DNA of 38,589 nt from Clostridiales bacterium (GTDB lineage Bacteria > Bacillota > Clostridia > Oscillospirales > Oscillospiraceae), in assembly GCA_021202775.1 (NCBI GenBank), contig JAJQCJ010000102.1, positions 1 through 38,589 on the forward strand, read 5' to 3'. Shown here piece after piece: positions 1-15,455 of this stretch. Numbering within the stretch: the stretch's first letter is position 1; each line of letters begins with the position of its first letter. The notes below the pieces were generated by a model. It was given only the letters and a program-made list of their open reading frames with translations, did no database searches and was not told where the DNA came from. The translations under genes were made by a program, and so were the position numbers.

Positions 1-385
1 GGCCTACTTTTCTTGCTCCGCCAAGAAAAGTAGCAAAAGAAGGCGGCTCAGGGGGGAGCTTCGGGGCCTCGCTCCCCCCTAAGAACCCCTCTCCTATCCC
101 GCTGGGGCTTCGCGCTGTCCAGCCTGGAAGTGGTCTATCAGGCAACAGACGATGTAACTTCTAACTGGTGAGACTGCCGCCGATGGCGGCTGGCAGGGAT
201 TGCCGTTCCGCCCTGCCAAGGGCGGGCGGAACGAGCAATTTTATTGTCCTCTGGTCGCGGAAATCTGACTATAAGGGTACGTTTTTACTCCTAATGAAAA
301 AAACAGTAGAGTATCACGCTTTCTCATCAGAGGTTGTTGCTTTACAGTTCAGGCCGATGTTATCTGTTGTTGGATTATAAAATTG
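1..385 (+). repeat. composite intergenic repeat, copy 1 (left end cut by window)
   Basis: This stretch closely matches 15027-15403. Its left part (1-235) is a string of hairpins. Arms 4-15/22-33 give a 12-bp stem with a 6-nt loop. Arms 51-59/71-79 give a G/C stem. A short GCCGCC-GAT-GGCGGC hairpin follows, and arms 205-217/221-232 close on a triloop. Conserved blocks include TATCCCGCTGGGGCTTCGCG and AAGTGGTCTATC. The right part (236-385) is a separate module described in its own entry. There is no credible coding sequence: the small reading frames shared with copy 2 simply follow the conserved DNA. It sits downstream of coaBC. It could be a non-autonomous mobile element or a structured RNA; the family is not recognised. 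Confidence 0.8.
236..385 (+). mobile_element. MITE-like ~150-bp module with inverted ends (copy 1)
   Basis: The module begins CAATTTTATTGTCC (236-249) and ends GGATTATAAAATTG (372-385), an imperfect terminal inverted repeat. Its body matches the reverse complement of 15255-15403 across the full length (150 versus 149 bp), including shared words such as TCATCAGAGG, ATTCAGG/GTTCAGG and GATGTTATC. It therefore lies in the opposite orientation, relative to the flanking hairpin part, in the other copy. No transposase is encoded. It may be an invertible segment or a MITE inserted both ways at the same site. Confidence 0.65.
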
Positions 386-403
386 ACGCCATCGCCCTGG
401 CGT
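386..403 (-). terminator. weak hairpin terminator after coaBC
   Basis: Reading the minus strand, 15 nt after the coaBC stop, ACGCCA and TGGCGT form a 6-bp stem with a 6-nt loop. It is followed by CAATTTTAT, which belongs to the end of the adjacent repeat module. The U-tract is interrupted, so this is a modest terminator candidate. Confidence 0.4.
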
Positions 404-14939: not shown

Positions 14940-15026
14940 GCGGCAGGAGGAGTTTTTATGGCCGACCGGCGGGGTTGTTTTCCTTAGACAAGGAATGAGA
15001 AAGGAACTACGTTTTGCCCTCCGGGC

Positions 15027-15403
15027 GGGCCCCATTTCTTGCGCCGCCAAGAAATGGGGGAAAGAAGGCGGCTCAAGAGGGCCGCTGTGCGTCCCTCTTA
15101 AGAATTTCCCTCTATCCCGCTGGGGCTTCGCGCTGTCCTATCGTCAAGTGGTCTATCCCGCTAGAGACGATGTGACTTGTTACGCACCAAAGCTGCCGCC
15201 GATGGCGGCTGGCTACGATTGCCGTTCCGCCCTGCCGAAGGCGGGCGGAACGAGCAATTTTATTGTCCAACGGTTGATAACATCTGCCTGAATCGCAAGG
15301 TGGCAGCCTCTGATGACAAAGCGCAATTATCCATTGTTTTTGCATTAGGGGCCATAGCCTACCCTTAAAGTTAGATTTTGGCGGCCAAAGAACAATAAAC
15401 TTG
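15027..15403 (+). repeat. composite intergenic repeat, copy 2
   Basis: Second copy of the element at 1-385, here inside the divergent region between the CbiK-like gene and metY. Hairpin 1 uses arms 15030-15041/15048-15059, the same 12-bp stem and 6-nt loop as copy 1 but with three compensatory base-pair changes. Hairpin 2 uses 15075-15081/15093-15099. The triloop hairpin is 15224-15236/15240-15251. The blocks TATCCCGCTGGGGCTTCGCG, AAGTGGTCTATC and the GCCGCC-GAT-GGCGGC hairpin are identical to copy 1. The right module (15255-15403) is inverted relative to copy 1. The 14776-15752 gap otherwise holds the two promoters and the metY leader. Confidence 0.8.
15255..15403 (-). mobile_element. MITE-like ~150-bp module, inverted orientation (copy 2)
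   Basis: The module is bounded by CAATTTTATTGTCC (15255-15268) and GAACAATAAACTTG (15390-15403). Its interior, read on the minus strand, aligns with the plus strand of 236-385: AATCTAACTTTAAGGGTA matches AATCTGACTATAAGGGTA, and CCTAATG, TCATCAGAGG and GATGTTATC are shared. The boundary with the hairpin part (GGCGGAACGAG) is the same in both copies. Confidence 0.65.
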
Positions 15404-15455
15404 CTATCCATCCCGCCGCAGCGGGAAAGTTTTTCCGCTTTCCCGAAAAAAAGGC

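Follow-up and report, generated by a model that had tools for sequence, protein, structure and literature searches.

One-armed copies of a palindromic intergenic repeat family likely account for an apparent module inversion on a Clostridiales contig

BIMEs are composite intergenic elements in which REP palindromes are arranged in alternating, facing orientation around spacers, and they occur in many copies per genome (PMC2817692). BOX elements of Streptococcus pneumoniae are modular (boxA-boxB-boxC) and of variable length, and they are reported to carry terminal inverted repeats and to generate target duplications (PMC3049150). The family described in this work is a composite written as L> M <L, in which hairpin-rich arms (L) of about 235 bp face each other around a module (M) of about 150 bp. 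Like BIMEs, it is composite, intergenic and multicopy with facing palindromic units, while its units are arms of about 235 bp and a palindromic centre of 150 bp and not short REPs (PMC2817692). The short REP unit (20-40 bp) with a GTAG-type head that marks BIMEs and REPINs was not found, the repeated arm being about 235 bp long, and a constant GTAG head was not seen by eye at the arm starts of two genomes. The other BIME/REPIN-type feature, two inverted repeats around a spacer, is present at 53 of the 68 modules analysed. In its modular composite build the family can be likened to BOX by description and not by sequence; unlike in BOX, the outer modules are the same module inverted, with one palindromic module between them (PMC3049150). 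Similarity to MITEs (PMC10969869) was seen in relatives bounded by a terminal sequence, T (GGCAATGTCATCAACTTAAG), which are short, have terminal inverted repeats of about 20 bp and in some cases 6-bp target duplications. Such ends were seen on the T-bounded forms and, in the window's genome, not on L> M <L, and the parent transposase was not found. M also resembles known invertible segments as it lies between inverted repeats and occurs in both orientations across species, whereas the two copies studied here have one long arm each, so that long inverted repeats do not stand on both sides of M there (PMC5903667, PMC10939037). No paper describing the L> M <L family was recognised in a literature search that covered few of the subscription journals. 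The family appears to be undescribed and of a known kind, the mosaic MITE/BIME-like intergenic repeats.

The window, that is the whole stretch of DNA analysed, is one whole contig of 38,589 nucleotides. It carries two copies of the repeat with distinct flanks. An earlier note on this DNA had reported that the left parts of the two copies share one orientation while their right modules align only after reverse-complementing one of them, and both observations held. The left parts are co-oriented, as seen from direct repeats of 72 nt (82%) and 97 nt (86%), the latter taking in the first bases of the module. The modules at 236-385 (150 bp) and 15255-15403 (149 bp) are identical at 112 of 150 positions, only with one of them reverse-complemented. 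The local score of the reversed alignment was 108, whereas the highest among 1000 shuffles was 26. A closer alignment on the same strand was not obtained, the best local match there being only the common 14-bp end CAATTTTATTGTCC with a score of 28. The module interiors scored +105 when reversed and -15 on the same strand. The inverted module ends were also confirmed, with the 14-bp CAATTTTATTGTCC present at the ends of M and conserved across copies. The extents proposed for the elements (1-385 and 15027-15403) were correct in the module coordinates and too short for the elements themselves, as about 50 bp more of copy 2 lies upstream of 15027 and copy 1 is truncated at base 1. Likewise, the junction described as identical in both copies is indeed a constant sequence and does not mark a clean boundary of the module. 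The sequence itself shows that the opening CAAT of M can also serve as the foot of the final stem in the left part (GATTGCCGTTCCGCC..GGCGGAACGAGCAAT).

Genomes were searched with the modules, and tabulation of orientation and junctions revealed a composite with inverted arms, for which five genomes supplied 68 full M modules. An arm was counted when it lay within 75 bp of M. On this basis 53 modules have two inward-facing arms, seven have the alpha arm only, seven have the beta arm only and one has neither; two nominally one-armed copies (G017 C39 and G020 C49) have a further arm farther out. Window copy 1 has the alpha arm only and copy 2 the beta arm only. The orientation of all 68 modules was clear-cut, with a margin of at least 56 bits in the oriented profile, which was built from the fetched loci in one orientation only. 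These loci comprised 59 of the 60 listed rows covering at least 100 of the 173 query bases (one G002 row was omitted) and one extra stretch. Among facing arm pairs at most 330 bp apart, 52 enclose M and none is without it, in a sample of sites that is non-random because the stretches were fetched around L or M matches. Of the 151 positions of the M consensus, 88 are self-complementary in register, compared with 38.4 +/- 7.5 in shuffled sequences (maximum 66, n=2000). M is an imperfect palindrome, and its two halves, alpha and beta, differ slightly. Because M is self-complementary, the complete element forms one large imperfect palindrome, and what is called the orientation of the module comes down to how its halves differ.

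The window's genome yielded 71 arm matches, some arms being split in two. A full M adjoins with its alpha end in 12 of these and with its beta end in 13, while a partial M adjoins with its alpha end in 30 and its beta end in 6. Seven of the remaining matches have no inner end and three have nothing beyond it, two of them at contig edges. Thus 61 of the 64 arm matches with an inner end adjoin a full or partial M. Many of the partial alpha cases are 'L-H' forms, in which about 56 bp of alpha is followed by a different hairpin tail, often T-ended.

Two types of junction between arm and module were distinguished. The alpha junction is mostly 'long' (..GGCGG|CAATT) and the beta junction mostly 'short' (..ACGAG|CAATT). 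The 53 two-armed elements comprise 37 with long alpha and short beta junctions, four with the reverse, eight with long junctions on both sides and four with one side unclassified. Both window copies keep a short junction; copy 2 follows the usual rule and copy 1 breaks it. The presence of the short junction at alpha in copy 1 and at beta in copy 2 means that M is flipped relative to the adjoining terminal hairpin. This requires a past exchange of either M or the terminal hairpin, which arm loss alone would not bring about. The arm cores fall into no alpha and beta kinds. Their mean identity within the same genome was 77.9 for alpha-alpha, 78.5 for beta-beta and 78.6 for alpha-beta comparisons (210 pairs each), and the two cores within one element had a mean identity of 76.9 (36 elements). 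The arms are interchangeable.

Table 1. Positions of the parts of the two window copies and of two T-bounded elements that contain L sequence
Feature	Position	Strand	Basis or remark
Copy 1, L arm, pointing right	1..235	+	L profile match at 1-233; outer end cut by contig start
Copy 1, terminal hairpin of arm, short-junction type (..ACGAG|CAATT), overlaps module edge	198..240	+	read from sequence
Copy 1, module M, alpha end adjoins arm, beta side armless	236..385	+	oriented profile, alignment
Copy 1, degenerate terminal repeat similar to T (GGCAATGTCATCAACTTAAG, 6 mismatches), joined to beta end of M in place of lost arm	377..396	-	
Copy 2, outer extension of arm (TTCCTTAGACAAGGAA..)	14979..15026 (start approximate)	+	
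Copy 2, L arm, pointing right	15027..15254	+	L profile match
Copy 2, terminal hairpin of arm, short-junction type, overlaps module edge	15217..15259	+	read from sequence
Copy 2, module M, beta end adjoins arm (alpha-first on minus strand), alpha side armless	15255..15403	-	oriented profile, alignment
Copy 2, possible decayed stub of lost alpha-side arm (CTATCCATCCCGCCGCAGCGG), tentative	15404..15424	.	by eye
T-bounded element with L arm and alpha	G000:C59:579-1301 (L196:579-1301)		duplication TTTCAG
T-bounded element with L arm and alpha	G000:C49:27144-27810 (L195:1501-2167)		duplication CTGAAA

It is likely that the window copies are one-armed halves of the palindromic L> M <L element which have lost opposite arms, against a background of slower flipping or exchange by recombination. 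The complete form would consist of interchangeable inward arms around an asymmetric palindromic M. An element that lacks the beta-side arm would then read as arm followed by M, and one that lacks the alpha-side arm would read as arm followed by reverse-complemented M. Copy 1 is of the kind without a beta arm and copy 2 of the kind without an alpha arm (Table 1). The apparent inversion of the module results from the opposite arms that were kept, at the alpha end in copy 1 and at the beta end in copy 2. No dedicated recombinase is required for the window copies, and nothing that was seen points to a programmed, recombinase-driven switch, the families searched being those of the transposases PF01609 and PF01797. 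Arm loss would give a plain anatomical answer to the apparent orientation paradox and exposes a trap in the reading of repeats, as one-armed relics of a palindrome mimic inversions.

The 15 one- or no-armed modules have 16 missing-arm sides, and 11 of these keep a clear stub of the terminal hairpin of the arm, as read by eye. The T-like sequence ATAAAATTGACGCCATCGCC follows directly on the beta end of M in copy 1. At the same site G017 has CTTAAATTGACGCCATTACC in an element with T-like ends, with its arm on the other side and facing the other way. Only a T-like remnant was seen by eye in G002, and no L or M was found at this site in G016 and G020. Judging from these relatives, a deletion from the module edge to the terminal T-like repeat probably removed the beta-side arm of copy 1. 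At the site of copy 2 (window 14950-15424), flanks which in the window are separated by the element alone lie about 1.0 kb apart in G017, G016 and G020. The intervening segment contains an ORF, 277 codons long in G017 and G020 and 307 codons long in G016, which is absent there in the window. Comparison with the relatives suggests that the alpha-side arm of copy 2 was probably removed by a deletion that also took the neighbouring gene. In the empty-site comparison of G020 with the window beside this gene, the G020 stretch never reaches the expected next gene.

The orientation of M between species was compared at shared sites using masked flanks, which gave 57 rows. The comparison added 27 of 54 named loci, 23 of them from isolate C.3_10 (CL3). 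To be kept, a pair had to have a full M in both members and a matching flank of at least 400 bp with an identity of 89% or higher, which gave 16 pairs at 14 sites; 35 rows were dropped, with flank matches of 185 bp at most that apparently belong to other repeats. Relative to the flanking genes, M has the same orientation in nine of the 16 pairs and is flipped in seven, as expected from random orientation (two-sided binomial p 0.80), and both flanks were matched in only one of the 16. Six further rows with good flanks and a partial M were divided into three same and three flipped. Outside the 16 pairs there were also a same-orientation pair with a 250-bp flank match (G016 C16 and G017 C101) and a flipped pair with a shorter piece of M (G000 C162 and G017 C105). 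M was the best match of its partner in three of the 16 pairs, two in the same orientation (89% and 93%) and one flipped (87%), and in two same-orientation pairs with partial M (97% and 92%). In the other shared-site pairs the identity of M was 73-83%, near the family background (mean 77, 1573 inter-genome pairs), which makes inversion indistinguishable from independent insertion or replacement. Something has flipped, replaced or re-inserted M over evolutionary time.

In the flipped pair of CL3 and G017, the two M modules match each other best (87%, rank 1 of 27). Identity is 91-96% in the right outer arm, which leads into the matching flank, and 74% in the left outer arm, which is non-orthologous. 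Two elements of G017, on C131 (L116:2081-2231) and C133 (L142:1500-1650), have M modules of 99% identity, and the nearest 120 bp of each arm is 92-93% identical while the outer arms are 69-83% identical. Conversion between copies seems to happen, in view of the near-identical M and inner arms next to diverged outer arms, and the two elements seem to share a gene-conversion-like tract. Flips of M most likely come from recombination or gene conversion between the interchangeable inverted arms. Over longer times, the orientation of M against its neighbours has changed too, probably by homologous recombination or conversion between facing or dispersed arms. The invertible segment suggested in the earlier note is right in a weak sense only, through the inverted arms around M and the interspecies flips, and opposite arm losses could account for the window copies.

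Among other explanations, the insertion of whole elements repeatedly into the same intergenic sites in random orientation, with the flips reflecting target preference, is unlikely and still has to be taken seriously. The near-even split of the shared-site pairs and the near-background identities of M at these sites agree with it, as do the two T-bounded elements with L sequence, which share one target (CTGAAA, with TTTCAG as its complement). However, the sharing of sites seems too common for chance in a rough estimate, and the right outer arm at the CL3 and G017 site is clearly orthologous though M is flipped. Programmed inversion, in which a recombinase encoded at another locus would cut M at the 14-bp inverted repeats CAATTTTATTGTCC that form its ends, appears very improbable. 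It could draw on the conservation of these ends, on the seven flipped pairs and on the four two-armed elements with exchanged junctions, which together with the short alpha junction of copy 1 need a change near the ends of M. Exchanged junctions are nevertheless rare (four against 37 canonical), which argues that M mostly travels with its terminal hairpins, as from crossovers farther out in the arms, and the flipped pairs mostly lack a closely related M. A wider form of this idea, in which M flips exactly at CAATTTTATTGTCC in dozens of dispersed palindromic repeats through a recombinase encoded elsewhere in the genome, is given hardly any weight; if true, it would make the family an array of small switches placed between neighbouring genes throughout the genome.

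The possibility raised in the earlier note that M is a MITE inserting either way at a fixed target within the L repeat could rest on the terminal inverted repeats of M and its constant junction. The data speak against it, as no facing arm pair was found without M in the fetched DNA, M lies mostly between two facing arms, 11 of the 16 missing-arm sides retain an arm stub by eye, and nearly all arms with an inner end in the window's genome adjoin M, two of the other three being at contig edges. Moreover, the bases outside the two ends of M mostly differ (37 of the 53 two-armed elements), so there is no target duplication around M in these, and we regard this reading as highly improbable. Even less weight is given to an assembly artefact, in which short-read contigs would be mis-joined through the facing inverted arms and M inverted at random. 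All sequences do come from drafts, and the window's genome has 174 contigs, several ending inside repeats of this family. But the two arm cores within an element are on average about 23% different (36 elements), judged enough for usual assemblers, the 37-to-4 junction bias would not survive random mis-joining, and both window copies are on one contig with distinct flanks. Loss of opposite arms from a palindromic element remains our preferred account of the window copies.

T was found at 72 sites with up to three mismatches in the window's genome, compared with none for a reversed control. The relatives G002, G016, G017 and G020 have 38, 105, 45 and 36 sites, and G022, G014 and G008 have 4, 1 and 4. 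T may resemble the ends of IS4/IS231-group elements. The reading of 30 T loci gave seven distinct T..T pairs shorter than 760 bp, four of which have clear target duplications of 6-7 bp by eye. Two of these four contain an L arm and alpha sequence (Table 1); the five other T..T pairs hold neither. The family probably spread by transposition of non-autonomous elements, for which no transposase was found. Transposition is proposed because T ends (GGCAATGTCATCAACTTAAG) and 6-bp duplications enclose some forms that contain L (two cases). At the ends of L> M <L composites, T ends were not seen in the window's genome, and no target duplication or clean empty site was found for the L> M <L element. 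The transposase families searched were PF01609 and PF01797. A single PF01609 match was found in the window's genome; its locus holds no T site, and its different ends speak against it as the autonomous partner of T. No T pair at IS-like spacing was seen by eye among the T places listed in the relatives. The PF01797 (Y1, RAYT) transposase occurs in one of six genomes and is absent from the window's draft (95% complete). Within the T-bounded MITE-like family (L195, L196, L205, L214), two members were seen by eye to lie within a hairpin of the CCCCTGAAAGGGG type that belongs to another repeat. A transposase with an open frame of 404 codons, presumably ISAs1-like, was noted at L225 (G000:C102:11793-12476), about 0.4 kb from an L arm and with the ends GCACGGAAATCAATTTT, by eye.

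The window's genome is a draft of 2.52 Mb. At least 59 matches to window 1-385 and at least 41 to 15240-15412 were found in it. Among 40 genomes, including the window's own, six have matches; these are the window's own and five of 24 others of the genus, while 19 of these 24 and all 15 genomes from other genera of the order gave none. The arm is also present in Clostridiales metagenome-assembled genome records (54 stretches). With tens of copies in some genomes, the family could serve as a natural collection of long inverted repeats for tracing arm loss, gene conversion and flipping of the centre between related species. The gene context of the 68 modules, taken from a crude ORF caller, was tandem in 18, divergent in 11, convergent in 10 and with a gene on one side only in 29, with no sign of a terminator-like preference for gene orientation.

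A conserved RNA was also considered and rejected. The window has no Rfam match at the gathering threshold, and the consensus fold of M was negligible (RNAalifold, 4 pairs). In single-sequence folds one of four strands stood out (z -3.4), the others being at about -1. Several G000 contigs, e.g. C3, C7, C101, C106, C143 and C147, begin or end in or beside L arms. The repeat appears to break short-read assembly, which matters for draft genomes of this group. A hairpin of about 30 bp, GGGAGCGCAGCGGAAATGCCGCTTGACGGC (up to 5 mismatches), was not found in the window and occurs 75 times in the fetched DNA, 52 of these in or near L arms. It lies in the hairpin loops of different repeats, e.g. on G000:C52 and G000:C122.
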